A DNA stretch of 64,000 nucleotides from Tetrahymena thermophila SB210. Its lineage: Eukaryota > Ciliophora > Oligohymenophorea > Hymenostomatida > Tetrahymenidae. The stretch lies in contig NW_002476570.1 in assembly GCF_000189635.1 (NCBI RefSeq), positions 310,001 through 374,000 on the forward strand, written 5' to 3'. Made by a program: the position numbers and the translations under genes. Below are positions 1,926-36,667 of this stretch, in pieces. Each line of letters opens with the position of its first letter. The stretch's first letter is position 1. A model generated the notes under the pieces. The model was not told where the DNA came from, searched no databases, and saw nothing but the letters and a program-made list of their open reading frames with translations.

Positions 1926-4900
1926 ATGAATAAAATTTTAATCTTCTCCATAGTTTTAAATTTGCTATTATAATAGACATTTACTTTATAATACATATAA
2001 TCTAGTTCTTCTTAGTCTGATATAATTGAATTCGCTCGTTACAATTCTACTAATTATTGTGATTAAGTTGACTAAACTGCTAATTTATCCAAAACCTTTT
2101 CCTAATAATTCAATAGTGTTCCTTAAATTTTTATTGGAATTCTCTTCTTTGATTTAGATACGACAACTTAAAGAATTGCCTTCAATTTTACAGTAAAAAG
2201 TGTTAATTAAAATCAACTCTCTATTCAATTAAATAAATATGGAGTTACATGCATATTTGGAATCAAAATATCATACTTTGCTACAGTAGATCAAGATGTT
2301 TAAATATAAAATTATATTCTTATGTTTAATTAGCTTGCTGATATTTAAACATAAAACAATAAGTAATATTAATTTATAATTCCATAGAAATTAGGTTATT
2401 AAAGAGGAGTTTAATGTGCAATAACAGGATTTGATTCAATTTACTAAATTCCACCAAGTAGCGATGCTTCTTATTCAGATCGAAACTTATCTACTACAAC
2501 ATAAGTTGATACATCAAACAACTTTTACTATATTTAAATACAAGCTTCTGATTTATCTGTAAATCTTTAAAAAATTTATATAAATTGCATAGAATATTAT
2601 ATCGGGTAAGCAGGAGATTATTCAATGATTCATAACATTTAATAAGAATAAACAACATCATAAATCACAACAAATTAAAATTTTTAAATAAATCTTGATT
2701 CGTCTTTTACAGGAAATACAATCACATCATTTTTAGGACTCTAATAATTTGACTTGTCCTAAAATTAAGCTTTAAGATTAGAATATCAAAACTTCAATTT
2801 TTAAAGTAAATAATAATCATTTTAAGTAATTACATGGGCTTCGAGCATTATATATTCTTCAACAGCTTTATTCTTTTAACATTAAATGATAGACTGCAAA
2901 TCTAGCTCTTATTAAATAAACTCAAGCGATTTAAAATAATGTGTTTCAAGGTGTTAAGATGGTTAATATCCAGCTAACTTTCAAACTACTTAAGTGTGTT
3001 CTCCTTGTAATCCAATTTGTAAAACTTGCTCAAGTTTAAATGTATGTACTTCTTGCTAATCAAATTAATTTGTAGATTCCTCTACTTAGTCCTGTAGCAA
3101 CTGCGATACAAACTGCTTAACTTGTTAAAATTCTTCTACATAATGCTTAAGTTGTCCTTAAGGTTGGTTTCTTTACAATTAAAAGTGTTATTCAATTCAA
3201 CCATAAGGCACTTATTGCGATCAAAATAAAATATGCTAAGATTGTTAAAGATCTTACTAATGCAATTTTTGTGATAATACATTATAAATTTGCATTAGTT
3301 GTATTAATTAAAGTTTATATTTTTTAAATGGAGTTTGTTCTAATATATAGCCACCAAACACATATTGCAATTTATAAAATATATGCCAAAAATGTCCAGA
3401 CTCATGTAATGGATGCGATTTAAATTTAAATTGTACATAGTGCGCAAATCTATAAAATTACTTTTATTTTGGAAAGTGTCTTTAGTAATAACCACAAAAT
3501 ACCTATTGTAGTGTAAATTTTGGTTTTTAAAAATTTTGCTAAAACTGTCATCCTGCTTGTAGTTAATGTTTTGGATAATAATTAGATCAATGTTCGACTT
3601 GCTAGTAGGGATATTAATTAGTTGGTTCTTCTTGTTTTTGTTAACAAGGATATGGTTATAGTACTGTTTCTTAATAATGTGAAGCTTGCTAAATTAGTGG
3701 ATGTATTCAATGTAGTAAGAGTTTAAACTAATGTGAAATGTGTTAAGCTTAATTTTTATTAGACTAAGCATCAGGTAAATGCTACTGCTCTAACCCTTAA
3801 TAGTATTATTCAACTGAATTATAATCATGCTTTTAAAATAATATTCATTTCTGTAAAGTCTCATCCAAATTTTAAAATACTTGTGAATAATGTCAAGATG
3901 GATATTACAATTATAATAAATTACTTTGTAGCTATTGTGGAAAATCGAAATACACAGACTCCTAAAATTAATGCAATAATGACTGCTAACCTTAGTGTAT
4001 AATATGCTCAAATAAATCAACATGCCTTCTCTTTTAAGATGAAGTAAATTCTAATACTAATGGAAATTTACCAATTAATCCAAACTAAAATATTTGCCAT
4101 TATAGTTGTGGTTTGTGCAACGGAAGTGGGTAATCAAATTGCCTAACTTGTAGCTCATAAACAAGAGTTTATGATATCTAATAGCAAACATGTAATTGTA
4201 AAAGTGGTAGATTAGATAAAGGGGATGCTGAATGTTAGGCAGCTTTTGACTTTTAATAAAACTACATATAGATATTATAAACTATCTTTATAACATTTTT
4301 AATAACCTAATCTTCCTTAGTGTTTTCCAATTAATTTAGGAAAGCAAATTTGAATTTTTATTTAATACAATAATTAATTTTTATAAGTTATGATAATACA
4401 TTAAATACTTCACTAAACTATGCTTAAACGATGAAATAATTTTAATATTTAAGTTTGGTTACTTTTATACCTATTTCATTAGTTAATGAAAGCAATTCAT
4501 AAATTACTTAAAAATGCAATTAAATAGTAATTTTATTAATATTTTAGGTTGCAGTTCTTTCAGCCTTTTTTATCTAAAATTTTTTGAAATATGAAAAACT
4601 AAAGTACTTTAACAAAGAAATACTGTTTAGCTGTAATAGATTAACATCCACCATGAATATAGCATTAATTCTTTAGCTATTAATAAAAGAAATTAAAGAT
4701 ATTTATAAATCAACACTTGTTTTGCTCATAATAGCATCATTATTTTAGCTAATTTTATAAATATTGGTTTTTAGAAAAATATATTTGGATTATAAAGCCA
4801 ATTTTTAAATTACGTCACCACAAAATAATACATTTAATTTATCTTTGATATTTAAATATCCATATATCTCATTTTAAACCAGAGAGTAATATCTTATTTT

Positions 4901-5438
4901 AAATGCTATCTTAGAAGTAAAAAGAATGATAAATGGTTTAGTGTTTGCATTTTTCAGTTAAAATGGATATGAATATTAAGTACTCAGTGGTATTTCTCTA
5001 TTCATAATAATTATAATCATATACTTAAAACCTTTTAATAGCTTATTAGCCAATCTAGAAGCCATAGTTATAGAATTTCTAATCTCTTCTTGCTTCGTTC
5101 TTCATTCATTTTACAGTAAAAATATATTTTAAAATAATGATGCTTCTTACCTTCTATGTATAATGATTACAATAACCGTAATCTAATTATTTGCTATTAT
5201 TTAATGTGCAATTTAAGTTTTCTTTTTCATTTATTAAAAAATAAAATCATGTAAATCTAAATCATCTAATTCAACTACAATCGAGCTCCTTCCTTAATAT
5301 ATTTAAAAAGGTAAAGTAATTGTATTTAAATTTAAGATTAAATAATTTTTTTTAGATAAAATAGATAATATTCTTGCTTCTAAAATGTTTAATTACAAAG
5401 TATTTAGAGTAAAAAATAATAACAAAGTTTAAATATGA
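1926..5438 (+). CDS. Array gene A: H-type-lectin/Cys-rich multi-pass membrane protein
   Basis: Two exons, 1926-5310 and 5356-5438, with a 45-bp phase-1 intron, give 1155 aa ending at TGA. Residues 1-22 are a signal peptide. About 45-125 is an H-type-lectin-like module (VPQIFIGI, FNFTVKSV, then ISYFA), and a second similar module lies near 255-330. About 338-770 is cysteine-rich, with dozens of CxxC-type pairs in furin/growth-factor-receptor style. From about 778 to 1090 there are roughly six to eight hydrophobic segments, then a short basic tail. The family is known in ciliates as large putative surface membrane proteins; ligand and function are unknown. A role in sugar or cell-surface recognition is inferred only from the lectin modules. 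The start is the first ATG before the signal peptide and is shared by the paralogues. An antisense frame over the Cys-rich part is a shadow. Confidence 0.9.
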
Positions 5439-8400
5439 TACATAAAATTCATAAAATGAACTTCAAGACCTAAAAAAAATATATTAATTATGTTTATAAT
5501 TTATTTATTGCAAATACTACTTTTCTTTGTTTCTTACTACTATTTAAATTGGCAGTTAATTGTGAAAAATTATTTAAGTGAATTATATCAAAATATAATA
5601 AAAATTTAGTTGCCTATTATTAATACTATTTTAGATTGAAAAAAGATATTTTGAATTTCTTGTTACTGATAATTAAACATTTGAAAGCTAAAAATAATTT
5701 TTGTCTTGATTAAGAACTCTTAATTAGTTTATTTATAACATAAGCTAAATTAACTCAAGAAGATAGTTAAATAAATGAATATGAATAAAATATTTTTTAA
5801 ATAAACTAGCTTAAATCATAAAAAATCAAATTTTTATAGATTCTAACATGACAAAAACTGATTTCTTAAAATAGATTTAGTAAATAAAACTAAATACACA
5901 AGTAAATAAATTTGTTACAGATAAACATTTTTTTGATTAAAATATTCTACTCAAATTAATAATTTATATAATTTATAAATACTACAGATTAGATTACTTT
6001 ATCAAGTAAAATAATCTATCCTTTGATAGAATAAAAGATACTTTAAATTTTTTTTAACCATAAGAAATTGACATAGTTTTTTAGTTTTTATTTCATCAAC
6101 TTTTACATCTTTTAAAAAAATAAATTTTTTTCAATAAATCTAATCTAGTTGATATCAATTTATGATATAAAATTTATGCAATTACTTAGTTTTAAATAAA
6201 TTAAGTATAATTTTTAGCTTTAATTACATTTAATAAGAATAAAAATTTTTAGTTAACATCATAAGATTAATACCAGTATAGATAATCTATCAAAACAATA
6301 TTTTCTTTAATTACATAAGCAATAAATAATACAGCTAATTACTTAGTCTATAATTCTAATAATTTACTTCTTCTAGAACTTTTTTAAATTCAAAATATAC
6401 AATATTTAAATAACTAAATAGTTTTATTTTATTGTAACAATTTAACTTTAACAATCAATATGTCACTTTTATTTTATCTTTGAATGTTTCAATAGAATTT
6501 TTAAAAATGAAGAATTAAAAAGATTTGGAGATATAATTGAAAAAAGAAATACCTATTATATATATTATCTATTTCAAATTTATTTTATACAACTAATAAT
6601 TTCTTAAAATGTATTTTTAATCATATTTATTTTAAAGTAGTAAGTAAAATTGATAAAAAAATTAAATTTTCTTATTAAATTCACATCATTTTTTTTAATG
6701 AATATTTAGATGTAATATCAATATTTTTAATTCTTATTTTTCTATATAAATATTATGAAAAAATAAAATAAAAATATGCTCAAAAAACTTTGAAGCTACA
6801 AATATTAATATGATATCTCAAAAATATTTGAACATATAACTGAAAAAAGAAAAACCTAATATATATATTATCTCTCAAAAATCTATTTTTTATAATAAAT
6901 ATTTTCTAAAAATGTATTTATATTGATTTAATCTGCTGTCATTTTAATAGTATATTTCTTTCAAATCATAATATCGATTTAATGCTTTTTAAATATAATC
7001 CATGTAATAAAAAACAATATAAATCATTACCAAATAATATAAATAAAATGCCAAATTTAATCAATCAAAGGATCCCCTAGCTGATTAGTAAAGGTAATTA
7101 ATTTATTTTTTGTTACTCATTTTTTTATTTAAATTTATTAAATAAAAAAAACTCAATATGATAACTCAATTTTAAGTTACAATTAAAACTCAAGAAATCC
7201 ATATTTGATAAAAAGATAATATGCTTTTTCAAGTAAAAGAATGGGTTTTATTGATATATTAACATTTAAATTGTGTAAATTTCATTTATGTTTTAATTTA
7301 ATTTATATTTACAAAAAAAAAATAAGATTTTATTGTTTATTTTTTTATATTAAATTTTCAATTTCAAACAAGCACTTGTGTTTTAAAAGTTAATTGTTTA
7401 ATTTATTATATCAATGGCTCATTTTTTAATTTCTAAAAATATGAATTTATATTTTTATCATTTTAAAATTTTTATTTTTGTGTTTAGAATTTAATAGTTA
7501 ACTTAATAAATGTAAAAATATTTTATTTTTATAAATTTAGCCATTTTATTAATTTTGTAAAGTTAAAAATTAAAAAAATATTAATAATATTTTCTTAAAG
7601 CTTCAACAATATATTGTTAATTTAAAATATTCTCGAAAGGAATCTAAAATAATAAAAAAAAGTATTAAAATAATTAATTTCTGAAATGATAGAAAATAGT
7701 GTTATTCAATAATGCAAATTAAAAATAAAAATCTTTTTAAAGGTATTAATAAAAATATTATCCTAATTATTTTAAATTTATTTTCCAAACAGAATATTTT
7801 ATAGTTATTCATTCATTATTTGTAAAATTATTTTTTATATCTTGATTTTCTAAAATATATTTGTCTTAACTTATTTATATCATAAAATAAAAATTTTATT
7901 CAATGATATTATGTTAATTATCTTTAGTATGAATGATTTATTTCTGTATATGTAACAACAATGTAAATTAAATTAAATAATTAGATATCTTTTAAAGATT
8001 ACTCTGTTTTAATAACTTTCTCCTTCATTTAATTATCAAATCTAATTTTTTTTTTTCCGATAACTCATTTTATAAATTTTATTTAATTAAAGGGGGAAAA
8101 TATTAGGCAAGTAAATCTTAGAAGCTTACAATAAATTAAATAATACTATCGTCCAATTTCAATTTACTTTTATTCAAGATTATGTAAATTATAATGTAAG
8201 GAGTTAATTAGATTTTATTAATAATTTTTTGAGACAAAAAATCAAACATATTAAGTTATTTTTTATTAACAATAAATACTTCTCTAAAAAAAAGAAACTT
8301 CATATTATTTTTTTTTAAATGAGTTTATTTTTTATTCATATGGAAAGTTTTTTAATTTGAGGAAATATATATATAGGATCTTACCTTCATTTGGGGGTAC

Positions 8401-8738
8401 TGATTTTATAGAATATATAGCAAGATGCCATTCAAAAATATGCAAAAGGATAGAAAAATAAAGATAATAATTTACTGCAAAAATTCAAAGTTAGAACTGT
8501 ATATATTATTTTTTTAAAATAAAAATAGCCAGTCACTTGAATTGAAATAGTAACATATTTTTTTTAAAGAATAATTAGATTTGTTACAACTAATTCAATG
8601 ATATTATAGCACTTTTGAAAATCAATTATATTAAAATTAATTGAGTTAATTTCTTAAAGAAATTTGATTTCTGATTTACAAAATAAAAAGAAATAAAATA
8701 ATAATTCAAAAAAAAAATTTATTTAGAATTGCTTTAAA
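5439..8738. other. Spacer between array genes A and B
   Basis: This 3.3 kb spacer is AT-rich and non-coding. Its first kilobase matches the sequence after genes C, D and E, including a conserved run at about 5650-5830. A ~310 bp repeat family lies at about 6480-6890. From about 6940 onwards it matches the upstream spacers of A and C. A short element beginning TATAGCAAGATGCCATTC lies at 8416 and recurs at 12530. No gene is seen. Confidence 0.7.
6480..6890. repeat. ~310 bp spacer repeat, about 1.3 units
   Basis: A unit carrying a gap-tolerant core (AGATATAATTGAAAAAAG, then AATACCTATTATATATATTATCT) is followed about 305 bp later by a related core near 6815-6875. The same units occur, about two and a half in a row, at 30531-31287. 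Edges are approximate because everything here is AT-rich. Nothing suggests a protein or RNA product. Confidence 0.6.
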
Positions 8739-11700
8739 ATGAAGAAAATTTTAATCTTATCAATAATTTTAAATTTACTATTATAATAGACATTCACTTA
8801 AAAATACATATAATCTAGTTCTTCTTAGTCTGGTTTAATAGAATTCGCTCATTACTATGGTACTACTTATTGTGATTAAGTTGACTAAACTGCTTATTTA
8901 TCCAATAACTTTTCTTAATAATTCAATAGTGTTCCTTAAATTTTTGTTGGAATTATCTTCTTTGATTTAGATACAACTACTTTAAGAAATGCCTTCCGTT
9001 TTACAGTAAAGAGTGTTGATTAAAATCAAGTCTCTATTTAATTAAATAAATATGGACTAACATGTATATTTGGAATCTAAATATAATACTTTGCAATAGT
9101 AGATCAAGATGTTTAAATATAAAATTATATTCTTACGTTTAATTAGCTCTCTGATATTTAAACATAAACCAATAAGTAATATTAATTTAAAATTCCATAG
9201 AAATTAGGCTATTAAAGAGGAGTTTAATGTGCAATAACAGGATTTGACTCAACTTACTAAACTCCACCAGATATTGATGTTTCTTATTCACATCGAAACT
9301 TATCTACAACAACATAAGTTGATTCATCAAACAACTTTTACTAAATATAAATACAAGCTGTTGATTTATCAGTAAATCTTAAAATAATTTATATAAATTG
9401 CATAGAATATTATATCGGGTAAGCAGGAGATTACTCAATGATAAATAACATTTAATAAGTGTAAACAACATAATAAATCACTACAAATTAAAATTTTTAA
9501 ATAAATCTTGATTCTTCTTTTACAGGAAATACAATCACATCATATTTAGGACTCTAATAATTTGACATGTCTTAAAAATATGCTTTAAGATTTGAATATC
9601 AAAACTTTAATTTTTAAAGTAATTAATAATCATTTTAAGTAAAAACATGGGGTACAAGTATTTTATATTCTTCAACAGCTCTATTCTTTTAACATTAAAT
9701 GATAGACTGCTTTTCTAGCTTAAGTTTAATAAATTCAAATGATTTAAAATAATGTGTTTCAAAGTGTTAAGATGGTTAATATGCAGCTAACTTTTAAACT
9801 ACTTAAGTGTGTTCTCCTTGCAATCCAGTTTGTAAAACTTGCTCAAGTTTAAATGTATGTACTTCTTGCTAATCAAATTAATTTGTAGATCCCTCTACTT
9901 AGTCCTGTAGCAGCTGTGATACAAACTGCTTAACTTGTTAAAATTCTTCTACATAATGCTTAAGTTGTCCTTAAGGTTTGTTTCTTTACAATTAAAAGTG
10001 TTATTCAATTCAACCATAAGGCACTTATTGCGATCAAAATAAAATATGCTAAGATTGTTAAAGATCTTACTAATGCAATTTTTGTGATAATACATTATAA
10101 ATTTGCATTAGTTGTATTAATTAAAGTTTATATTTTTTAAATGGAGTTTGTTCTAATATATAGCCACCAAACACATACTGCAATTTATAAAAGATATGCC
10201 AAAAATGTCCAGACTCATGTAATGGATGCGATTTAAATTTAAATTGTACATAGTGTGCAAATCCATAAAATTACTTTTATTTTGGAAAGTGTCTTTAGTA
10301 ATAACCTTAAAATACCTATTGTAGTGTAAATTTTGGTATTTAAAAATTTTGCTAAAACTGTCATCCTGCTTGTAGTTAATGTTTCGGATAATAATTAGAT
10401 CAATGTTCGGTTTGTTAGTAGGGATATTAATTAGTTGGTTCATCTTGTCTTTGTTAACAAGGATATGGTTATAGTACTGTTTCTTAATAATGTGAAGCTT
10501 GCTAAGTTAGTGGATGTATTCAATGTAGTTTGAGTTTAAACTAGTGTGAAGTATGTTAAGAGTAATTTTTATTAGACTAAACAACAGGTAAATGTTACTG
10601 CTCAAACCCTTAATAGTATTATTCAACTGAATTATAATAATGCTTTTAAAATAATATTCATTTCTGTAAAGTCTCATCCAAGTTTTAAAATACTTGTGAA
10701 TAATGTCTAGATGGATATTACAATTTTAATAAATTGCTTTGTAGCTATTGTGGAAAATCGAAATATACAGACTCCCAAAATTAATGTAATAATGACTGCT
10801 AACCTTAATGTATAATATGCTCAAATAAATCAACATGCCTTCTCTTTTAAGATGAAGTAAATTCTAATACTAATGGAAATTTGCCAATCAATCCAAACTA
10901 AAATATTTGCCATTATAGCTGTGGTTTGTGCAATGGAAGTGAGCAATCTAATTGTCTAACTTGTAGCTCATAAACAAGAATTTATGATATCTAATAGCAA
11001 ACATGTAATTGTAAAAGTGGTAGATTAGATAATGGAGATGCTGAATGTTAGGCAGCTTTTGATTTTTAATAAAACTATCTTTGGATATTATAAACTATCT
11101 TTGTAACATTTTTAATCACCTAATCTTCATTAGTATTTTCCAGTGAATTTAGGAAAGCAAACTTGAATTTTTATTTAATACAATAATTAATTTTTATAAG
11201 TTATGATAATACATTAAATACTTCACTAAGCTATACATAAACAATGAAATAATTCTAATATTTAAGTTTGGTTACTTTTATACCTATTTCATTAGTTAAT
11301 GAAAGCAATTCATAAATTACTTAATAATGCAATTAAATAGTAATTTGGTTAATATTTTAGGTTACAGTTCTTTCGGCCTTTTTTATATCAAACTTTTTGA
11401 AATATGAGAAACTCAAGAACTTTGACAAAGAAATACTGTTTAGCTGCAATAGATTAACATCCACTATGAATATAGCATTAATTCTTTAGCTATTAATAAA
11501 AGAAATAAATGATATTTATAAATCAACACTTGTTTTGCTCATATTAGCATCATTAATTTAGCTAATTCTATTAATAATTGTGTTTCGAAAAATATATTAA
11601 GATTATAAAGGTGATTTTTTATTTAGATCACAATAATAAAATACATAGTAATTAAATTTGATATTTAAATATCCATATATTTCATTTTAAATTAGAAAGC

Positions 11701-12253
11701 AATATCTTATTTTAAATGCTATCTTAGAAGTAAAAAGAATCACAAATGGTTTAGTGTTCGCATTCTTCAGTTAAAATGGATATGAATATTAAATATTCAG
11801 TGGTATTTCTCTATTCATAATAATTATAATCATATACTTAAAACCTTTTAAAAGCTTATTAGCCAATCTAGAAGCCATAATTATAGAATTTCTAATATCT
11901 TCTTGCTTTATTCTTCATTAATATTACAGTAAAAATATATATTAAAATAACGATACTCTTTACCTTCTTGTCATAATGATTACAATAATCGTTATCTAAT
12001 TATTTGCTATTATTTAAAGCACAATTTAAGTTATCTTTTATATTTATTAAAAAATAAAATATCATAAATCTAAGCCATCTAACTCAAATACAATCGAGCT
12101 CCTTCCTTAATATATTTAAAAAGGTAAAATAATTGTATTTAAATTTAATATTAAATAATGTTTTTTTTAGATAAAATAGATAATATTCTTGCTTCTAAAA
12201 TGTTTTATTACAAAGTATTTAGAATAAAAAATAATAATAGAGATTAAATATGA
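8739..12253 (+). CDS. Array gene B: H-type-lectin/Cys-rich multi-pass membrane protein
   Basis: Exons 8739-12123 and 12171-12253 with a 47-bp phase-1 intron encode 1155 aa, the same length as A, C and D. Architecture is the same: signal peptide, lectin-like modules, Cys-rich repeats, multi-pass C-terminus. I read the frame through without an internal TGA, so the gene looks intact. Differences from A concentrate in the N-terminal third (for example FAHYYGTTYCDQ against FARYNSTNYCDQ, and WGTSILY against WASSIIY), while the Cys-rich part is nearly the same. The 3' flank is shorter than that of A, C, D and E and lacks most of the shared downstream kilobase. Function is unknown beyond surface recognition by inference. 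Confidence 0.9.
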
Positions 12254-14498
12254 TACTATACATACAATTCATAAAATGAATTTCAAGACCTATATAAAAT
12301 AGATTAATTATATCTATAATTTATTTATTGCAAACACTACTTTTATTTTTTTCTTACTACTATTTAAATTGGCAGACAATTATAAAAAATTATTTAAATT
12401 CTCAAAAGTAATTTAATAATTTTATTTAACATCATAAGATTAGTACCAGTTTAAATTCTTTCATTTTCATAGTTTTCATATCCTTCAAATGGTTAAACTT
12501 GAACATTAAATTTTCTGTTTTATATATACTATAGCAAAATGCCATTCAAAAATTTAGTGAATTGAGATCACTATTTTTTTGAATGGTTGATGCCTTTGAA
12601 TATTATTTATATAAAAATAAATAATTTTATAATAGAATTTAATTAATAATATTAATAATTTTAATTTATATCAATCTTTATGATTTTTCTATTAAATTTT
12701 TAAATACAGAAATGCGTATTAATTAGACAAAATGGATTATATTCTACTGAATTCACATTTCCATTATCCTATATATATCAGTTTTTTTATGCTTTTTAAT
12801 TCAAAATATTTAGAGGAATAATATGATAATCAATTTAAATGTGACCTATTTCAGCTAAACGACGAGCCGGAATTTGATTTAATCTATCTTTTTAATAATA
12901 TTTTTCTTTCTAATCATAATATCGATTTAATGTTTTTTAAATATAATCCTTGTAATAATAATATACAAAAAATATAAATCATTACCAAATAATAAAAATA
13001 ATATGCTAAATTTAATCAATCAAAAGATCCTCTAGCTGATTAGTAAAGGTAATATATTTTTATTTACTCATTATTTTACTAAAATAAACTTAATTTTAAG
13101 TAACAATTAAAACTCAAGAAATCCTTATTTAGTAAGAAGATAATATGCTTTTTCAAGTAAAAAAATGAGTTATTATTGATATATTTGAATTTAAATTATG
13201 TTTAATTTAATTTATGTTTTAATTAATATTTTAGAAAAAAAAAATTAAATATTTCAAATATGCACTAGTGTTTTAAAATTTAATTACTTAATTTATTATA
13301 TTAATTACAGATTTTTTAATTTCTAAAATATGAATTTATATTTTTATCATTTTAAAATTATAAATTCAGTGTTTAAGAATTTAATAGTTAAATTAATAAA
13401 AGCAAAATTCGTTTATTTAATTTTAATAATTTTCACCTTTTTATAATTTTATAAAGTAAAAATTAAAATAAATCTTAATAATACTTATTAAAGCTTCAAT
13501 GATAAATTATTAGTTTAAAATACATTCGAAAGTAATCTAAAATAAAAAAAGAAAATTTAAAATAATTAATTTCAAAAAAATAATATTATTCAATAATTCA
13601 ATTTTTAAGTTAAAAATTTTATTAAAGGTAAAAATAAAAATATTTTCCTAATTATCCTTTTCATTGAATTTCATTTATTTGCAAATAGAATATTTTATCG
13701 TTATCATTATAGTATTAATTATTTTTAATCTCTTGATATTCTAAAAAAAATTATCCTTAGCTTATTTGAATTATAAAATACATATTTTATTTGATTATAT
13801 TATGTTTATTATTTTTAGTATTAAAAATTTATTTCTGTAGATGTAACAATAATATAAATTAAATGAAATAATTAGAAATATATAAAAGAATACTCAGATA
13901 TAATAATTTATTCTTCTATTTAATTATCAAATCTATATTTATAATTTTTTTTTTCCACTAACTCATACTCTTAATTGTGTAATTAAATGGGGGGAAATAT
14001 TAGGTAAGTAAATCACATTAGAAGCTTACTATAAATTAAATAAATCTATGGTCCAACTTCAATTTGCTTTTATTCAAGATTATGTAAGCTATAACATAAG
14101 GATTTAATAAGATTATTTATATGCTTTTATAAGACAAGAAGATAAGAAATGCTAAGTTATTTTTATTACAAATACCTCTCTAAAAATTTAAAATTAAGTT
14201 AAGCGACTTCATTTTATTATTTTAAAATGAGTTTTTATTTTTTTCGAATGAAAAATATTTAATTTTAAAAAATATATCTATGATTATACTTAAATAAAAA
14301 TAATCATTTGAGATGAGAATCATAAATTTTTTAAAAAATAATTAAATTTGTTACATTGAATTCAATGATTTATTTATACTTTTGAAAATCAATTATTTTG
14401 AAATTGAATTTATTTTCTTGAAAAATTTGATTTCTAATTTACAAAATAAAAAAAATAAAAAACAATTCAAGAAGAAATATATTTAGAATTGCTTTCAA
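12254..14498. other. Spacer between array genes B and C
   Basis: This spacer is AT-rich and non-coding. The start resembles the 3' flanks of the other array genes for only about 150 bp before the similarity breaks off. From about 12890 it follows the spacer that precedes genes A and B, including the CTAGCTGATTAGTAAAGG patch near 13030 and the G-run/AAATATTA patch near 13989. A hairpin element is listed separately. No gene is seen. Confidence 0.65.
12530..12586. repeat. Short hairpin element beginning TATAGCAA
   Basis: Two 19-base arms, 12542-12560 and 12568-12586, match at 17 of 19 positions as inverted repeats around a 7-base loop. The lead-in TATAGCAAAATGCCATTC recurs almost exactly at 8416, and a diverged form at 19801 precedes a smaller GTGGT/ACCAC hairpin. 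This suggests a family of tiny foldback elements in the spacers. Mobility is inferred from recurrence only. Confidence 0.45.
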
Positions 14499-23800: not shown

Positions 23801-24407
23801 TTAATTAAAATTTGATATTTAAATATCCATATATCTCATTTTAAACCAGAGAACAATATCTTATTTTAAATGCTATCTTAGAAGTAAAAAGAATGATAAA
23901 TGGTTTAGTGTTTGCATTGTTCAGTTAAAATGGATATTAATATTAAATACTAAGTGGTATTTCTCTATTCATAATAATTATAATCATATACTTAAAACCT
24001 TTTTATAGCTTATTAGCGAATCTAGAAACCATAGTTATAGAATTTCTAATATCTTCTTGCTTTGTTCTTCATTCATTTTACAGTAAAAATATATTCTAAA
24101 ATAATGATGCTTCTTACCTTCTATTTATAATGATTACAATAATCGTTATTTAATTGTTTGCTATTATTTAATGTTCAATTTAAGTTTTCTTTTTTATTTA
24201 TTAAAAAATAAAATCACATAAATCTAAATCATCTAATTCAACTACAATCGAGCTCCTTCCTTAATATATTTAAAAAGGTAATATAATTGTATTTAAATTT
24301 AAGATTAAATAATTTTTTTTATAGATAAAATAGATAATATTCTTGCTTCTAAAATGTTTAATTACAAAGTATTTAGAGTAAAAAATAATAATAAAGTTTA
24401 AATATGA
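20893..24407 (+). CDS. Array gene D: H-type-lectin/Cys-rich multi-pass membrane protein
   Basis: Exons 20893-24277 and 24325-24407 with a 47-bp phase-1 intron encode 1155 aa. The frame is uninterrupted. Domain order is the same as in gene A. The N-terminal lectin module carries its own variants (FARYGSAIYCQK, and TWEGS in the second module), whereas long stretches of the Cys-rich part are nearly identical to gene C. The upstream spacer is truncated compared with A-C but keeps the last ~880 bp, including the G-run/AAATATTA patch, so a promoter is probably retained. Ligand and role are unknown. Confidence 0.9.
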
Positions 24408-25884
24408 TACATATAATTCAGAAAATGAATTTCAAGGCCTAAATAAGACATATTAATTATGTTTATAATATATTTATTGCAAATACTATTTTTCATTGTT
24501 TCTTACAACTATTTAAATTGGCAGTCATTTGTGAATAATTATTTACATTATTAAAAGTAATAAATATGTATTTAAACATGGAAAATATAATGGTTACAGA
24601 GAATTATATCAAAATATAATAAAAATTTAGTAGCCTATTATGAATACTTTTTTAGATTTGATATTAGATATTTTGAATTTCTTATTACTGATAATTAAAA
24701 ATTTGAAAAGTAAAAATAATGTTGTAATTCTTGATTAAGAACTCTTAATTAGTTTATTTATAACATAAGCTAAATTAACTCAGGAAGATAGTTAAATAAA
24801 TGAATTAGAATAAAATATTTTTTAAATAACTAGTTTAAATTATATATAATCAAATTTTTATTAATTTTAACATGTAAAAATATGATTTCTTAAAATACAT
24901 TTAGAAAATAAAACAAAACACACAAGTAAATAAATTTGTTACAGATAAACATTTTTTTGGTTAAAATAATCTACTCAAATTAATAATTTATATAATTTAC
25001 AAATAATATTTGATAGAATAAAATATTTTTTTAATTTTTTTTTCCATAAGAAATTGACATTATCCTAATTATTTTTTTAATCGAATTAAATTTATTTGCA
25101 AGTAGAATATTTTATCATTATTCATTATATTTCTTGATTTTCTAAAATAAATATATCTTTAGCTTTTTTAATATTATAAAATAAATATTTTATTTTATTA
25201 TATTTAGTATTAACTATTGATTTCTGTATATTTGACTATAATATAAATAAAAATAAATAATTTAATATATATAAAAGAATACTCTTATCTAATAATTTAC
25301 TCTTTCATTTAATTATCAAATCTAGACATAATAATTTTTTTTTCCACTAACTATTACTTTAAATTGCCTAATTAAAGGTGGGGATTATTAGATAAGTAAA
25401 TCACGTTAGAAGCTTACTATAAATTAAACAATTCTATGGTCCAACTTCAATTTGATTTTATTTAAGATAAGGTATTTTATGATTTAAGGATTATTAGATT
25501 ATTTTTATAATTTTATGAGACAAAAAGATTAGAAATCTTTTATTACATATGCCCCTCTAAAAACTTAAAATCAGGTTAAGAGACTTCATTTTGTTATTTT
25601 AAAATGATTTTATATTTTTTTCTGATGAAAAACTTTTTAATTTGAGAAAATTTATATATTGTTATATTTAAATAAAAATAATCATTTTAGTTGAAAAAGA
25701 ATTGTAAATTTATTTAAAAATAACTAAATTGGTTACAATTAATTCAATGGTATAATACCACTTTTGATAGATCAATTATATTGAAATTGAATTAATTTTC
25801 TTGAAAAATTTAATTTCTTATTTACAAAATAATAAAAAATAAAAGAACAATTTAAGAAGAAATTTTATTTAGAATTGCTTTAAA
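24408..25884. other. Spacer between array genes D and E
   Basis: This is the shortest spacer of the array, about 1.5 kb. It joins ~650 bp of the shared 3' flank directly to the last ~830 bp of the shared 5' flank. The join lies near 25010-25060, so the middle is lost relative to the A-B spacer. It is AT-rich and no gene is seen. Confidence 0.65.
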
Positions 25885-28784
25885 ATGAAGAAAATTTTAA
25901 TCTTCTCCATTACTTTAAATTTGCTTTTATAATAGATATTCACTTAAAAATACATATAATCTAATTCTTCCTAGTCTGATGTAATGGAATTTGCTCGTTA
26001 CGGTTCTACTTAATATTGTGGGAAAGTTGACTAAACTGCTAATTTATCCAATAACTTCTCTTAATAATTCAATAGTGTTCCATAAATATTTATTGGAATT
26101 CTCTTCTTTGATTTAGGTACAACTACTTTAAGAAATGCCTTCAATTTTACAGTAAAAAGTGTTAATTAAAATCAAGTCTCCATTTAATTAAATAAATATG
26201 GAGAAACATGCATATTCGGAATCAAAATATCATACTTTGCAACAGTAGATCAAGATGTTTAAATATAAAATTATATTCTTACACTTAATCAGCTCTCTGA
26301 TATTTAAACATAAAACAATAAGTAATATTAATTTAAAATTCCATAGAAATTAGGCTACTAAAGAGGAGTTTAATGTGCAATAACAGGATTTGACTCAATT
26401 TACTCAACTCCACCAAGCACCGATACTAATTATTCACATCGAAATTTAGCTACTGCAACATAAGTTGACTCATCAAACAACTTTTACTAAATATAAATAG
26501 AAGCTCCTGATTTATCAGTAAATCTTAAAATAATTTATATAAATTGCATAGAATATTATATCTGGTAAGCAGATGATTACTCTATGATTAATAATATTTA
26601 ATAAGAATAGACAACATAATCAATCACATCAAATTATAATTTTTAAATAAATCTTGATTCGTCTTTTATAGGAAATTCAATCACATCATTTTTAGGACTA
26701 TAATAATTTGACTTGTCTTAATAAGCGGCTTTAAGATTGGAATATAATCACTTTTTTTTTTTAAATAATTAATATTATTTTTAAGTAAATACATGGAGTT
26801 CGAGTATTTTATATTCTTCAAAAGCTCTATTCTTTTAGCATTAAATGATAGACTGCAAATCTAGCTTTAATGAAATAAATTCAAACGATTTAAAAAAATG
26901 TGTTTCAAAGTGTTAAGATGGTTAATATGCAGTTCAATTTTAAACTACTTAAGTATGTAGCAACTGTGATCCAAGCTGCCTAACTTGTTAAAATTCCTCT
27001 ACATAATGCTTAAGTTGTCCTTAAGGTTTGTTTCTTTACAATTAAAAGTGTATTCAATGTTGTAAGAGTTTAAATTAATTGGAAATGTGTTAAACGTAAT
27101 TTTTATTAGATTAAGCAACAGGTAAATGCTACTGCTCTAACCCTTAATAGTATTATTCAACTGAATTATAATCATGCTTTTAAAATAACATTCATTTCTG
27201 TAAAGTCTCATCCAAATTTTAAAATACTTGTGAATAATGTCAAGATGGATATTACAATTATAATAAATTGATTTGTAGCTATTGTGGAAAATCGAAATAT
27301 ACAGACTCCCAAAATTAATGTAATAATGACTGCTAACCTTAGTGTATAATATGCTCAAATAAATCAACATGCCTTCTCTTTTAAGATGAAGTAAATTCTA
27401 ATACTAATGGAAATTTGCCAATTAATCCAAACTAAAATATTTGCCATTATAGTTGTGGTTAATGCAACGGAAGTGGGTAATCTAATTGCCTAACTTGTAG
27501 CTCATAAACAAGAGTTTATGATATCTAATAGCAAACATGCAATTGTAAAAGTGGTAAATTTGATAAAGGGGATGCTGAGTGTTAGACAGCTTTTGACTTT
27601 TAATAAAACTATCTTTGGATATTATAAACTATTTTTATAATATTTTTAATCACTCAATCCACCTTGGTGTTTTCCAGTTAATTTAGGAAAGCAAATTTGA
27701 ATTTTTATTTAATATAATAATTAATTTTTATAAGTTATGATAATACTCTAAGTATGTCACTAAACTATGCCTAAACGATGAAATAATTTTAGTATTTAAG
27801 TTTGGTTACTGCTATACCTATATCAATAGTTGATGAAAGCAATTCATAAATAATTTAAGAATGCAATTAAATAGTAATTTTATTAATATTTTAAGTCGCT
27901 GCTCTTTCAATTTTTTTTATCTAATATTTTTTGAAATACCAAAAACTAAAGTACTTTGACAAAGAAATACTGTTTAGCTGTAATAGATTAACATCGACAA
28001 TAAATATAGCATTAATTCTTTAGCTAATAATAAAAGAAATTAAAAATATTTATAAATCAACGCTTGTTTTGCTTGTAATTGCATCATTAGTTTAGCTAAT
28101 TCTATAAATAATTGTTTTTAGAAAGATCTATTTGGATTATAAAGGCAATTTTTTAATTACATCACAATAAAAGAATACATTGAATTTATCTTTAATATAT
28201 AAATATCCATACATTTCATTTTAAACAAGAGAATAATATCTTATTTTAAAAGCTATCTTAGAAGTAAAAAGAATTATAAATGCTTTAGTGTTTGCATTGT
28301 TCAGTTAATATGGATATTAATATTAAATACTTAGTGGTATTTCTCTATTCATAATAATTATAATCTTATACTTAAAGCCCTTTCATAGCTTACTAGCCAA
28401 TCTAGAAGCCATAGTTATAGAATTTCTAATATCTTCTTGCTTTCTTCTTCATTCATTTTACAGTAAAAATATATTTTAAAATAATGATGCTTCTTACCTT
28501 CTATTTATAATGATTACAATAATTTTTGTCTAATTATTTGCTATTATTTAATGTACAATTTAAATTTTATTTTTCATTTATTAAAAAATAAAATCGTATA
28601 AATCTAAATCATCAAATTAAGCTACAATCGAGCTCCTTCCTCAATATATTTAAAAAGGTAAAATAGTTTTTTTAAATTCAAGATTAAATAATTTTTTTTA
28701 GATACAATAGATCATATTCTTGCTTCTAAAATGTTTAATTACAAAGTATTTAGAGTAAAAAATAATAACAGACTTTAAATATGA
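25885..28784 (+). CDS. Array gene E: shortened lectin/Cys-rich membrane protein
   Basis: Exons 25885-28657 and 28702-28784 with a 44-bp phase-1 intron give 951 aa. The gene is intact, but it is 204 codons shorter than A-D through two in-frame losses in the Cys-rich part. One of 32 codons lies at about 26957, where a TGT codon is joined to AGC AAC. One of about 172 codons lies at about 27050, where AAG TGT runs straight into ATT CAA TGT. Both junctions fall on cysteine codons, so the CxxC spacing style is kept and no single odd codon is left. Signal peptide, lectin modules and membrane segments remain. It is the most diverged of the five outside the losses. It could be a functional short-stalk form or a relic under weak constraint; the open frame over 950 codons favours function. 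Confidence 0.88.
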
Positions 28785-30530
28785 TACATACAATTCATAA
28801 AATGAATTTCAGGGTAATATAAAATTATTAATTATGTTTATATTTTATTTATATTTATTTGATGTGAATTATGCTTTTATTTGTTTCTTACTGCTATTTA
28901 AATTGGCAGTCAAGAGATAAATTATTTAAATTCTAAAAAGTAATAAATATGTATTTATAAAAATGGAAAATATAGGAACTAAAATTAATTATATCAAAAT
29001 ATTATAAAAAATTATTCGCCAAATATGAAAACTAATTTGATATGATATATTTTGAATTTCTTGTTACTGATAATTAAAAATTTGAATGGTAAGAATAATG
29101 TTTGTCTTGATTAAGAACTCTTAATTAGTTTTATAACATAATCTGAATTGACTCTAGAAGATAGTTAAATTAACGAATACGAATTAAGTATCTTTTAAAG
29201 AAACTAGCTTAAACCAAAAAGCAAGAAACTTTTATTAACTCTAACATGTCAAAATATGATTTCTAAAAATACATTTAGTAAATTAAAAAAAACACACAAG
29301 TAAATAAATTTGCTAAAAATAAACATTTTTTGATTAAAATAATCTACTTAAATTAACAATTTATATAATTTAAAAATAATCCTATGATAGAATAAAACAT
29401 ACTTTAAAATTTTTCCATAAAAAATTGAAATAGCTTTTTAGTTTTTATTTCATCAATTTTTACATCTTTTAAAAGATTATTTTTTTTCAATAAATTGAAT
29501 CTAGTTGATATCAATAAATGATATAAAATTTAGGCAATTACTAAACTTTCCATAAATTAAATATTATTTTTAGCTTTAATTACATTTAATAAGCATAAAA
29601 ATTTTAGTTAACATCAAATAACAGTAAATATAATCTATCAAAATAATATTTAATTACATACACAATAAATAATACAGCTATATCATTGATTACTTAGTCG
29701 TCTATAATTCTAATAATTTACTTCTTCTAAAAATTTTTAAAATTCAAAATGTACAATATTTAAATAATTACATAGTTTTATTTTATTGTAATAATTTAAC
29801 TTTAACATTCAATATGTCTCTTATATTTTATTTTATTTTAATTTAAATTTAAAAAATTAATTTTTCTAATTTATTCTGTAATATATGATATATATCTAAC
29901 TTAATAAGTATTAACCTTAAGTAATATTTTTATTCATTATTAGAGTTATCTTTACTGCAAAAAGCAATAAACCAATACAAAAGCTTTATCGATTATGTTT
30001 GAATCTCCATACACTTCATTTAATCAAACACAAAATACATTTATATAATATATATATATGTTAATTGAGATATCTTTATTATTTTTAAAGAAATAGTATA
30101 TTTAAGCCTTTTCATGATTAGCTTAATTTTAATTTAAATTTTTTTATAGTCTATATAGACCTATTAAATTCTAATTAATTAAAGATAATTTCACCCCAAA
30201 TTATGTATAGATTGCTCCTTAACATATCTAAAAAGTTAAATTGAGTTACTATTATTAATAAATAAAAGTAAATTTTTTTAAACGAAAAATAGATTATATA
30301 CTTCATAAAATGTTTTTTATAGTAATAACTACAAAGAAAAGATTAAGCAATCATATTTGTTGATTAAATTAGTAATTAAATGTAATTTATATGATAATTC
30401 TATTCCTTCAATTTTTTAAATATTTAGAAGCAGAGCAATAATTTTAATTCTTATTTTTCTATTTTATTACATTTAATAAAATAAATAAAATCTATTATAA
30501 ATACACTTTAAACCTTTAAATATTAATAAA
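28785..30530. other. 3' spacer after array gene E
   Basis: 28785-29820 matches the 3' flanks of genes A and C, and 29830-30300 matches the C-D spacer around 19100-19680. The stretch is non-coding and very AT-rich; no gene is seen. It marks the right end of the repeated unit before the ~310 bp tandem repeats begin. Confidence 0.6.
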
Positions 30531-31287: not shown

Positions 31288-31523
31288 TTTTAAATAACAT
31301 TATTTGAAATAAAAATAATTTTCTTCTCCATTTCCTTTTACATTTTTATAAAAAAGAATTTAGATAAAATTGCTTGCTTAGAGATTTACTTATTAAAATT
31401 TAATTTAAATACTTATCCAAATCCTACTAATAATTAATAAAATCAAATTAAATACTTAGTAAATATAAAATGCATAAGTGGAAACATAAAATTTCAAGAC
31501 TTTATAAATTAAATAATAAAATA
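31288..31523. repeat. Right copy of the bracketing direct repeat; upstream region of LRR gene
   Basis: This matches 1-255 as described there. Here the repeat leads directly into the start codon at 31524, so it probably carries the promoter of that small gene. Both copies are preceded by sequence of the ~310 bp repeat family, so the two ends of the array share the same local context. Confidence 0.75.
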
Positions 31524-32153: not shown

Positions 32154-32972
32154 AAATTAAAAAAAATTTATTAATTTAATTATTATACTAAAATGTATTT
32201 TTAGATTTTTTTATTTGTATTAAAGCATTCTCTAATTACGAAAAAGATAATTTTAATATTTCAAAAACAAATCATTTTAATTTTCTAATTTATTTTTACA
32301 AAAGTAAAATTTAAAATAAATTATGATCAAAATTTTTAACAAAACTAATTAATTATTTTATAAACAAAATTCAATATATTTAAATATGAAATTAATGAAG
32401 ATATTTTGAATTTAATATTGATTATAAAATAATATAAATACATAATAACTTGCTTGCTATTATTCTTTTTGATAAATAATTTAATAATCAATCATAAATT
32501 ATTGAGAAATTCTGAAAATTTAAAAAGTTTAATGAACAAATTAATTAATTGAATTTTAAATATATTTATTTTGTTATAATTTATCTGTTAAAAAAATTAT
32601 TTTTTATATCCTTATTTTATTTTTAGTTATTTGTTAAAAAAAGTTAGTAATAAAACTGAATATAAAAATTTAAAACTCACTAACTAACTTTGAGAAATTG
32701 GGACAAATTGAAATCTTGATGAATTTCAATTATTTATCAAATTTAAATATGTATTATATTTATGGTGTTTGTGATTTTTTATTTTAAGAGAAATTTAATT
32801 ACATTTATTTATGTGAAGATCTTTACCAATTTTTGTGCCCACAATAATTTATATGAATGGGATAATTAATCATTAATGTAAGTAATCGTTTCCATGCTAA
32901 CTAATTAATCAATCAATAAATTAAAAAAATTTCTCATACTTTTTTTAATTAATAAAATAAGCAAAAAGATAG
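32154..32972. other. Intergenic, nothing recognised
   Basis: This AT-rich stretch separates the LRR-like gene and the sixth lectin/Cys-rich gene. I see no gene, tRNA or clear repeat, and no obvious match to the array spacers. Confidence 0.5.
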
Positions 32973-35900
32973 ATGAGTATGAATAGGGAAATGAATAAAA
33001 TGGTTCAAAAAAAATTATTATTATTGTTAATTTTATTAAACTTAATAAAAACTACAATTTGTGAGAGTGGTAGCTACACATTAGCTGATTTTTATCAGGT
33101 AATTTAACTGAGAATAGTAGACTTTAGTGTTAATCCATTGAGTACAAGTAACATTTAAAATACAATTACATTCAATTCAGATAAATTTAAAAACCCTCAA
33201 ATTCTCATCGGAGTGATGTAATTTGATGTTGCTACCAATACGAACTACATAGGATATAAATTGGATAATACAGTTAATGGAAATTCTATTACATTAACTG
33301 CTTAACAATTTTAAGATTCAAAAATAAGTTAAATCATAATATTATGTTTGATAATTTAACACTAAAGCGTTTACATACAAAAAGGTTCAATTATTATGCC
33401 TGCTCCAAATTCTAATTTAATTATCAAATAAACTATTAATTATCAAAAGTAGACTCAAAACCCTCCTCAAATTTAGGCATATATCACAGGATATCTAAAT
33501 TAAGTATAAGGTGACTATCTAAAAGTTAAATTAACTGTCTAATAAGGTTAAAACTCATTTGATTTAATTATAGAAAGATCCGATATGGGTTTACAAGAGG
33601 TTTACTATAATTACATTGAGGTATATGATGATGTAAATATTGGCTTCTAACAGTCTTTTACAACCTATCAACCAAGTCCTTATTATTTAGCAAACATGTA
33701 TTAAGAAAATTCATATGAGGACTCCTCAAATACTGCTCTAAATAATGGATAAGTAGGAAATAGACTAAGTAATCAAAGAATTCTATCAGTAAATCTTTAA
33801 TATCCAGCTTCTAATTCCTATAATTTTACTCAAGTAGGGTTTTTTATTGGGTTTACTTTCTATGAGTATGATATTACTGTGAAAACAAATGGATTGAGAG
33901 CAGAAATTTTTAATATTCAATTTTTAAATAATATTTTCAATTTCAACTACAGAGTTTGGTATACCTCTCAGATTTTAGGGATAACAGCTTCCTATTTATA
34001 CTTTGGAATGCTTAACTGTTAGATATCTAATCCGAGTAATCCAATTAATGATTTTACCAATTAAGCTTGCATAAATTAGTGTTAAAGCGGTTTCTATGTT
34101 TATTCTAACTCTTAAACAAATCTTTAGTCCTGTAATGCTTGTGATAGTTCGTGCCTAACTTGTAATGGAGGAAGCACAAATAATTGTTTGAGTTGCACAA
34201 GTGGGAATTATTTAACATCAACTAGTTCATGTGCTAGCTGTCCTATATAATGTAATTAATGCACTTCTTCCACTTATTGCAGTTCTTGTAATTCAAATTA
34301 TGGATTTTTTTTTAAAAACTTTTGCTATTAATCACCACCACCATATACCTATTGCGATCAATAAACATATCAGTGCAAAGCTTGTAACTCAATGTGCGCT
34401 ACTTGTAGTTCAAATCTCTAATGCTTGACCTGTTAAAATAATTATTATTTACTAAATGGGATATGTAGCTAAAATTAACCAAGTAATTCTTATTGTGATC
34501 CTTTAACAAAAAAATGTGCTCCTTGTAATTAAAATTGTGGTGCTTGTGATTCATCTCTCAAATGTACATATTGCAGTAATAATTCTTATTACTTTTATTT
34601 TGGTATTTGCTCAACTACACAACCGCCATCTACTTATTGCCAAAATAATGTTTCTTAAGGAATTTAAAATTTTTGCTAAACATGCCATCCAGCTTGCAGT
34701 AGTTGTACAGGGCCATAAATTAATTAATGCTCCTCATGTAATAGTGGGTATTATCGAAATGGGAACTCCTGCTATTGCAATAATCTCAGCTAATCATACA
34801 ATCCAATAACATAATAATGTTAAAATTGTATAGTTAGTGGATGTGCTTCATGTTAAGATGATATAAACACTTGCGATTACTGTTAGAGCCAATACAAAAT
34901 GATAAATAATTAATGTGTATGCAAAAATTCATAACAATACTTTGATTAAATTCAGTAAACGTGTATATAAAATTCTATTTAAAATTGCTTAATTTCCTAC
35001 CCAAATTAAAATAAATGTGCAAAATGCAATGATGGATTTCTTAATTACTAGGACTTAATGTGTACTTATTGTGGAAAATTTAAATATACTGACTCAAATA
35101 ATTAATGCACAAATAACTGCTAATAGAATTGTCTCATATGTACAAATAGCAATAGCTGCCTTTATAATATTAATAATAACAGTAATAACAGTACAAATGA
35201 TTCAACTAATTCTTAAAATGGCAGTATTCCATACAGCAACAGTTTATGTCATTATTCATGCGCTTTATGTAATGGATATGCCTATAATAACTGCATCTAA
35301 TGCAGCTAAGATGATAATAGGATATATAACATAATTGATTCTACTTGCGATTGCATGGATGGATTTGTAGATAAAGGGTAAAGATTATGTGCTCAAGGAA
35401 GTGATATTAGTGAAAGTTTAAAAAAAATTCTTTTAATAGGATTTTATTTGATATTATTAGCAATTTAAGTGCCATTTATATTTTTTGATAGGTTTTAATG
35501 GATTCATTTTAACTATCATTTAATACAATATGTGGCAATACTAAGTTTTTAGTCATTTTACTAACAAAATTTACATTATGCATAAATCATTTAACTATTT
35601 AAATATTTAGGATTTTATAATATAATTCCTATCAAAATAATAACAACTGAAGACAGTCAAATTAATTTTCTAATCAATAGTTTAATTATCACTAAAATTA
35701 TTTAAGGCACTTCTGTGTTAATATTTATGATTACATGCTTAATAAATAACACCAAGTTCAACAAGATTAATCAATTAATAACATCAACAAATAGATTTAC
35801 AACTACAACATAAATAATCTCTATTATTTACTTATTCTAACAAGCTTAATCATTAACAAGTTTTCAATATGTGCTTGTAATCATAGCTTCTGTTATATAA

Positions 35901-36667
35901 GTGATTGTAGTATTAATCATATTGTTAAAGCCAATTCTATGGCTAAAAAAGAGTTTTTAATAAAATCATGTTACTGACTAAAAAACTATTGAAAATTTGG
36001 ATACTTCCTTTTAAAGTAACTAAAACAAAGAAACTGACTAAAAAACAAAAAAGCTATTATTTAACAGTCTATTTTATGAAATTAGAAGAATTTTCTTAAT
36101 AATTTTTTTCATTTCTCAAAGTGATAGCTCAATGCCTTACTATGTTTACACGTTTGTGTCTTTTTTTTTTATCTTAACTATTATTTACTTAAAACCTTTT
36201 AAGACAAAAATATAAGATGTAATAGTAATTTTATCTGAAATATTAGTAAGTTCTATATTTGTGAGCAGTGTTTATATAAGATTATATAAAAATGTGGTAG
36301 ACAATAAAGTAAATTATTATATATAAGCTTTGATAATAGGCATAGGAACACTTATTATTCTTGCTATTTTCTAAGTAATTTATGAGCTTATCAATATTAG
36401 ATAATAATATCAATCATAAAGTAAAAGTGCGAATCCTCTCTCAATTTAACTCTAGTAAAAAATGCCTGAAATCATTACAAAAGGTAAATATTTTTGAATT
36501 ACATAAATATAACTAAATTAATAAATTTTTATAAAGACTAAATAGATTTAATTTTAACATCTCAAAGATTTGAAAAACCATTTAAATCGTATAATAGAAT
36601 AAGCTTAAACTTGATTAAAATAAGAGCTGATTCAAGAAGCTTGACAAGATCAAAAAACTTATTTTGA
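32973..36667 (+). CDS. Diverged sixth member of the Cys-rich multi-pass membrane family
   Basis: Exons 32973-36483 and 36537-36667 with a 53-bp intron give 1213 aa. The intron is phase 1 and at the same point as in genes A-E. Several in-frame ATGs (32973, 32979, 32991, 33000) precede a strong signal peptide, so the exact start is open. An N-terminal region with weak H-lectin-like strands (PQILIGVMQFD) is followed by another beta-rich region, then furin-like CxxC repeats from about residue 355 to 800, then five to seven hydrophobic segments. A Ser/Asn-rich insert lies near residue 740 (a NINNNSNNST-type run). It is clearly homologous but far more diverged than A-E are from one another, so it predates the recent amplification. 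The linked position suggests it is the older neighbour from which the array arose. Confidence 0.87.

Follow-up and report, generated by a model that had tools for sequence, protein, structure and literature searches.

Does a tandem row of receptor-like genes give a cell more of one receptor, or several receptors that recognize different ligands? This question is raised by a 64,000-nucleotide stretch of DNA from Tetrahymena thermophila SB210 (positions 310001-374000 of contig NW_002476570.1, hereafter C10, in the 101.0-Mb assembly GCF_000189635.1), which we call the window. In keeping with this origin, an exon of the telomerase reverse transcriptase from this genome agrees over long stretches, with no mismatch, with the T. 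thermophila telomerase structure 6d6v. A preceding sequence-only reading had proposed that five intact genes in a row, recently amplified next to a diverged sixth, encode alternative or dose-amplified surface receptors composed of H-type-lectin-like modules, a furin-like cysteine-rich (Cys-rich) stalk and six to eight membrane spans. Our follow-up leads us to consider the locus as probably an eight-copy array of multi-pass cell-surface glycan receptors that differ in specificity, not dose.

Gene models were built with the ciliate genetic code (table 6), and splice sites were drawn from the genomic sequence, not from RNA. Six tandem genes lie on the forward strand of the window. Four of them encode 1155 amino acids each, namely g1 (1926-5438, intron 5311-5355), g2 (8739-12253, intron 12124-12170), g3 (14499-18013, intron 17884-17930) and g4 (20893-24407, intron 24278-24324). 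They are followed by g5 (25885-28784, intron 28658-28701), which encodes 951 amino acids and lacks most of the Cys-rich stalk with its frame intact, and by the diverged relative g6 (32853-36667, intron 36484-36536), which comprises 1253 amino acids from the first ATG; its signal peptide points to a start further downstream. A phase-1 last intron of 44-53 nucleotides with GT..AG borders could be drawn in all six genes, including g6, as had been claimed. It precedes a short last exon, and the encoded tail carries the motif D-[KQT]-ID-x-IL-x-S. In g3, g4 and the upstream copies u1 and u3, an alternative acceptor leading to 1162 amino acids is possible. We chose the acceptor present in the copies without this alternative, and the length of exactly 1155 codons, correctly noted before for g1 to g4, depends on that choice.

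The row of six was confirmed, but the array proved to be larger. Upstream of the window, three further close copies, u3, u2 and u1, modelled with 1155 amino acids, are located at C10:289949, 297777 and 304540, preceded by a second diverged relative, d0 (C10:~284853-288470). The close set thus comprises eight copies (u3, u2, u1 and g1 to g5) with amino-acid identities of 83-91%, a range that also holds among g1 to g5. As the genome search with g1 scored 40 of 76 candidates, this copy number is a lower bound. Both g6 and d0 share 31-36% identity with all close copies (33-36% for g6 versus g1 to g5). The ratio of nonsynonymous to synonymous substitution rates (dN/dS) averaged 0.37 over the 28 pairs of the eight copies. 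Thus, the copies are under overall purifying selection and are not pseudogenes.

The full-length copies share one order of parts, consisting of a signal peptide-like start, a head that extends to approximately residue 324, a Cys-rich stalk, membrane spans and a tail. A profile search with Pfam H_lectin (PF09458) gave significant matches in g1 to g5 (E 2e-11 to 1e-12), in line with the predicted H-type-lectin-like modules, whereas g6 remained below the cut-off (ectodomain E 0.064). The match corresponds to the first of three modules, M1 (2094-2285 in g1, residues 57-120). The relative d0 is above the cut-off (E 8e-6), with its best stretch in M2. Module profiles were derived from 11 of 23 aligned heads; L008 was left out, as was L003, which is the same gene as L040b. 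For M3, 9 of the 11 members were used, the poorly aligned L005 and L006 being omitted. Compared with the PDB, the M1 profile yielded seven matches at E<=1 (best 1e-9), among them entries of the snail lectin HPA (Helix pomatia agglutinin), HAA, discoidin-1 and discoidin-2 as well as the 'galactose-binding lectin' 3wmp, which we take to be the H-type lectin SLL-2. M1 is therefore homologous to H-type lectins. With the M3 profile, all five matches at E<=10 were HPA, HAA or discoidin, with E values of just 0.09-0.27. Profile-profile alignment with hhalign connected M1 and M3 over 57 columns (P 1.3e-4). The ectodomain thus seems to carry three H-lectin-like modules, of which M1 is certain and M2 and M3 are weak by profile; M2 looks degenerate. 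H-type lectins are six-stranded beta sandwiches that assemble as trimers, and the three tandem modules suggest a single-chain version of such a trimer.

The stalk of g1 occupies positions 2937-4235 (residues ~338-770). Each of the seven full-length copies has 68 cysteines in residues 324-770, and the whole protein contains 23 CxxC motifs. The Cys-rich part of the earlier description is thus clear, but no furin-like profile reached its cut-off (VSP, 19.7-21.2 bits versus 31.4; Furin-like_2, 15.5 versus 28). The multi-pass region of g1 (4266-5201, residues ~781-1092) contains six strong hydrophobic segments (781-799, 867-885, 931-949, 1019-1037, 1040-1058 and 1074-1092) plus three weaker ones by mean hydropathy, which retains the predicted multi-pass C-terminus and widens the span count of six to eight. 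The C-terminal tail is basic, with 11 Lys and Arg versus three Asp and Glu residues counted in g4. No Pfam match over cut-off, to a GPCR, a channel or any other family, was obtained for the membrane region of g4 and g6, an absence that excludes little. A membrane-region profile found one PDB match at E<=10, the unrelated CdvB (E 1.3), and a PDB search with exon 1 of g1 (1125 amino acids) gave no match at 0.01. In g5, the head and the anchor are kept and the stalk is partial, leaving 42 cysteines in the whole protein; with an in-frame difference of 204 residues in an otherwise intact gene, g5 represents a natural short-stalk variant. Longer stalks occur in other family members (L040, L042 and L043). 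In one relative (L040:3-4673, C10:228003-232673), whose 5' end is cut by the stretch, the stalk shows 23 units of 45-48 residues, and stalk length thus varies greatly within the family.

Selection on the individual parts was assessed with GY94-type site models written for this analysis (M1a, M2a, M8a and M8; ciliate code), where the codon test of the stalk excluded g5. The dN/dS values were 0.48 for the head, 0.29 for the stalk and 0.34 for the membrane region. For the lectin region of the eight copies, the likelihood-ratio test (LRT) statistics were 17.2 (M1a-M2a) and 17.0 (M8a-M8), compared to 4.9 and 5.3 for the stalk (seven copies) and non-significant values of 1.5 and 1.6 for the membrane region (eight copies). 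The head result did not depend on the tree, as M1a-M2a statistics of 28.6, 26.6 and 23.9 were obtained with the star, stalk and membrane topologies. Considered singly, M3 gave the largest M1a-M2a value (11.5), followed by M1 (4.0) and M2 (2.8). None of 40 plain null simulations (maximum 5.36) and none of 40 with a topology break (maximum 6.79) reached the observed 17.17. Codons 46, 157, 281, 305 and 306 of the head exceeded a probability of 0.9 under M8. We conclude that the lectin region is under strong positive selection, whose signal is weak for the stalk and not significant for the membrane region.

The codon with the most residue types was 305, which encodes A, G, Y, E, H, Y, D and S in the eight copies. 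These seven residue types are the maximum among the 1155 codons, followed by six types at residue 281 and five at codons 40, 46, 57, 280, 306 and 608, the last lying in the stalk. Codons 305-306, both positively selected, are found at 2838-2843 in g1, 9651-9656 in g2, 15411-15416 in g3, 21805-21810 in g4 and 26797-26802 in g5, all on the forward strand. R284, W304 and Y310, in contrast to this variable pair, are invariant in all eight copies and belong to M3 (2658-2897 in g1, residues 245-324). In the profile alignment, the "TW" of M3 falls on T82-W83 of HPA (numbering counted from the printed chain range), which places residue 305 on His84 and residue 306 on Asn85. An ungapped count puts R284 and Y310 on Arg63 and Tyr89, and the Arg-19-Trp-5-Tyr spacing of M3 is that of R63/W83/Y89 in HPA; the HMM (hidden Markov model) alignment itself shifts R284 two columns further on and compensates with a gap, which makes the equivalence to Arg63 less sure. 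We take Arg63, Trp83, His84 and Tyr89 to be N-acetylgalactosamine (GalNAc) contacts in HPA; these residue names were not found in the open-licence literature, among the matches listed. The most variable position of the protein would thus coincide with an expected sugar-contact spot, beside an invariant frame. The M1 counterpart of Asn85 is residue 107, which reads V, L, G, E, V, L, G and E across the copies.

The variable patch had been noticed by eye before it was mapped, and the mapping onto HPA is post hoc. A second array therefore serves as an independent check. It lies on a 72-kb contig (C23) and comprises five H_lectin loci (L044-L048) with 72-77% identity over the stretch read. Here, dN/dS was 0.38 for the M1 part, 0.19 for M2, 0.81 for M3 and 0.16 for the first stalk part. 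With five copies, the LRT statistics for the head were 8.7 (M1a-M2a) and 10.3 (M8a-M8), compared to 0.0 for the first stalk part. The residue after the M3 Trp is again variable (E, D, A, D, K), and so are the residue two positions before that Trp (Q, E, S, K, N) and the loop before M1. Single-site calls from five sequences are rough, and one listed site, 255, is invariant in the protein. Thus, the C23 array repeats the selection pattern of the lectin region, less strongly.

The copies also exchange segments. In approximately unbiased (AU) tests, the membrane data rejected the head tree (3e-7) and the stalk tree (9e-6), the stalk data rejected the head tree (8e-6) and the membrane tree (1e-6), and the head data rejected the membrane tree (0.0018). 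The stalk test and the polymorphism permutations were performed with seven of the eight copies, g5 being left out. Clustering of shared polymorphisms exceeded all of 300 permutations by sum of squares, and a run at least as long as the longest one observed arose in 4 of 300. These conflicting trees and clustered polymorphisms indicate that heads and bodies differ in history. Thus, heads and bodies are reshuffled between copies.

The borders of the duplicated unit are visible in the flanking DNA. The spacer between d0 and u3 recurs 5' of all seven other close copies with 77-80% identity over 864-1851 bp, and at five of these seven it is preceded by a relic of the d0 3' end. In the window, the spacer copies lie on the forward strand at 472-1925 (g1, beginning with the relic at 473-562), 6923-8738 (g2, in two parts, 6923-8374 and 8494-8738; relic 6902-7158) and 12776-14498 (g3, relic 12766-13086); those of g4 (20021-20892) and g5 (25059-25884) gave no d0 relic. 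Most simply, the duplicated unit would have started inside d0. Approximately 600-660 bp 3' of the stop are common to six of seven copies, with g2 sharing only 171 bp. Remnants of decayed membrane regions, or DNA that matches the sequence around them, occur at L015 5731-6219, L010 6045-6479 and, in the window, at 29649-30322 and 19015-19397, the latter being a forward-strand fragment between g3 and g4. They sit downstream of several copies and were apparently duplicated with the unit. Such fragments between copies indicate that loss also occurs. Coding dS between copies averaged 0.166 (range 0.106-0.239, 28 pairs). Since the copies differ by a dS of 0.11-0.24 and the spacers match the d0-u3 spacer at just 77-80%, the array is not an assembly artefact or a read collapse. 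To call the amplification recent was an overstatement, as a mean dS of 0.17 is not near identity.

Taken together, a kept frame, variable contact neighbours, a mostly conserved stalk and anchor, and a second array with the pattern repeated fit receptors that share an output and differ in the ligands they prefer. In the mechanism that we propose, each protein would enter the secretory pathway and display its three-module head at the tip of a disulphide-rich stalk, with M3 and its Arg/Trp/Tyr frame as the candidate sugar site. A membrane domain of six to nine spans would anchor the head, and the basic C-terminal tail should face the cytoplasm. The copies would have arisen by unequal exchange of a unit starting in the 3' end of d0, and segment exchange would then have reshuffled heads and bodies, with selection altering residues beside the invariant pocket frame and leaving stalk and anchor mostly conserved. 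The cell would own several receptors with one output, presumably a signal, and with different sugar preferences, plausibly for the surface recognition of bacterial prey or other cells. Bacterial glycans are plausible ligands, given that for Acanthamoeba a role of H-type lectins in sensing bacteria has been proposed, according to the available text of PMC11377244.

Of the two options left by the sequence-only reading, the data favour alternative receptors, as the LRT statistic declines from lectin region to stalk to membrane region and selection peaks at the expected sugar contact. Multiplication of near-equivalent receptors for more product would agree with the mostly conserved stalk and anchor and with the low overall dN/dS, but dose predicts neither omega >1 at pocket-side codons nor the same pattern in a second array, and we rate this explanation as the least probable of those considered. 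A more technical concern is that relaxed constraint combined with gene conversion mimics positive selection. The copies do exchange segments, and conversion can inflate site tests; as the 40 topology-break simulations stayed far below the observed statistic, and the result holds under four topologies and, less strongly, in the C23 array, we consider such a mimicry decidedly unlikely.

The proteins might also be variant coats, possibly mutually exclusive ones, whose heads diversify to escape recognition. Tandem sets, segment exchange and a variable outer domain are seen in such coats as well. However, the invariant Arg, Trp and Tyr beside a variable residue suggest a kept binding site, and M2 of the C23 array is nearly as conserved as the stalk, so that variation does not extend across the whole exposed head; antigenic variation appears improbable to us, slightly more so than the conversion artefact. 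The alternative to which we give the most room, unlikely as it is, holds that the proteins are CRMP-like stimulus sensors for extrusome release, with the head as sensor of a contact or prey glycan and the multi-pass anchor as the trigger of mucocyst exocytosis. According to the available text of PMC9670195 and PMC9218915, the Cys-rich multi-pass CRMPs of Toxoplasma and an H-lectin protein function within a single complex, and in Tetrahymena CRMP1/2 take part in mucocyst exocytosis; the array proteins unite a lectin head, a Cys-rich stalk and a multi-pass anchor in a single chain. A general trigger, however, needs no tandem diversified set.

Several results weigh against receptors of differing specificity, the reading that we prefer. 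Concerning the selection pattern, the head is not strictly the sole site of diversification, since the last 26 codons have a dN/dS of 1.29 (with few changes), the stalk is nominally positive by M8a-M8 with codon 608 as the site, and four membrane codons (947, 967, 970 and 1038) exceed 0.9 under M8 despite the low LRT statistic. None of the 28 pairs shows dN>dS over the whole lectin region, a Fisher test of nonsynonymous and synonymous changes at four contact-like codons gave P 0.094, and the head data did not reject the stalk tree (AU, 0.12). The post hoc nature of the mapping belongs here as well. Furthermore, M1 keeps the Arg but has Y105 and an invariant G106 at the places of Trp83 and His84, and F111 in place of Tyr89. 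The three-module head is likewise weak by profile: hhalign assigned probabilities of 54% to M1-M3 and 30% to M1-M2 (P 5e-4, 28 columns) and detected no relation between M2 and M3 (P 0.41, 0.1%), and Pfam H_lectin was found in two of 11 M2s (best 2e-4) and one of nine M3s (0.01). AlphaFold models based on six-row alignments had a mean pLDDT (predicted local distance difference test) of 44.6 for the head and 35.2 for the membrane region. A fold search with the head model gave no match at E<=0.001, and the matches listed (50 of 975) were antibody entries with TM-scores (template-modelling scores) below 0.25. Given the low pLDDT and the lack of a meaningful fold match, both models were discarded.

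To our knowledge, the molecular basis of prey and cell discrimination by bacterivorous ciliates is largely open. In a genetically tractable model, the array provides a delimited set of genes in which codons 281, 305 and 306 are the predicted determinants of specificity, and eight natural variants of one predicted pocket on one scaffold are suited to glycan-array comparison. The five copies on C23, with the same pocket variability, offer a good second system. Going further, we tentatively entertain the idea, possible in our view and less secure than the reading of this one array, that a single-celled predator maintains an immune-like repertoire of lectin receptors by tandem duplication, head exchange and pocket selection, with one kind of body and several arrays. 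That idea spans the arrays of the genome, two of which were tested for selection. A further array, on C13 (five loci aligned), was kept out of the codon-model tests because just three of its copies are similar. Genome-wide, at least 54 H_lectin matches were counted (C10, 17; C116, 10; C13, 5; C23, 5; elsewhere, 17), which are lower bounds and refer to exons, not genes. Head, Cys-rich stalk and membrane region also occur together in L040 (second gene), L042 and L043 (first gene). The second gene of L043 is cut inside its membrane region by the end of the stretch; in L041, the first frame ends in the stalk, and the second continues past the end of the stretch. This expansion is notable, as the available text of PMC8878817 describes H-type lectins as not expanded in molluscs or brachiopods.

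The remainder of the window holds genes of other kinds. At gathering scores, Rfam detected only two tRNAs, the tandem tRNA-Lys (CTT) genes at 42202-42276 and 42400-42472 on the reverse strand. At 38655-40413 (forward), a response-regulator receiver frame precedes a protein-kinase frame, and the two are possibly one gene with introns. A long reverse-strand frame with a C-terminal receiver domain (59778-61718) may be the terminal part of a hybrid histidine kinase. Two calcineurin-like phosphoesterase genes on the forward strand (49447-50874 and 56375-58543) have N-termini alike by eye and may represent another tandem pair, and a Rab-GAP TBC domain frame lies at 52347-53339 on the reverse strand.

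How does the array compare with known systems? M1 is a clear member of the H-type lectin family (PDB E 1e-9 to 4e-6), and M3 shows, by the ungapped count, the Arg-Trp-Tyr spacing of HPA. The solved H-type lectins among these matches are soluble agglutinins, whereas the array proteins carry three modules at the head of a membrane protein that is Cys-rich, multi-pass and part of a large gene family. Tandem, fast-evolving GFR Cys-rich genes are already known, as are H-type lectins. In Tetrahymena, the GFR Cys-rich genes form one of seven domain classes of species-specific genes, which frequently occur in tandem (PMC6564038); in the main text of that source 'lectin' occurs 0 times, and neither the lectin head nor the selection pattern was found in its available text. 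The mating-type proteins MTA/MTB likewise combine a variable outer segment, furin-like repeats and a transmembrane end in a tandem germline array, but their genes are completed by a DNA rearrangement that joins them to shared transmembrane exons, and the main text describing them also contains 'lectin' 0 times (PMC3608545). In contrast to such incomplete copies, the array copies are complete, each with its own membrane region, as judged from one assembly and no separate germline one. The terms 'lectin' and 'cysteine-rich' are absent from the main text of a T. thermophila vesicle proteomics study (PMC12029339), and PMC3341644 was similarly uninformative. We did not find a head of several H-lectin modules on a multi-pass body, in arrays with pocket selection, in the open-licence literature, among the matches listed and the text available.

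Further parallels are offered by MIC15 and the CRMPs. MIC15 (Tg247195) of Toxoplasma is a single chain that contains TSP1 domains, two Cys-rich repeats and an H-type lectin domain (PMC9218915, available text), so that the combination of lectin and Cys-rich parts in one polypeptide is not new. It differs in having one transmembrane region and TSP1 domains, and the multi-pass CRMPs are separate chains (PMC9218915, PMC9670195); tandem diversification was not found in the available text of either source. The CRMPs share with the array proteins a Cys-rich ectodomain and several spans, for which the predictions are five in Tetrahymena and nine in both Toxoplasma and Plasmodium (PMC9670195, available text). 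By analogy, the CRMP parallel may offer a route for the output of the array receptors.

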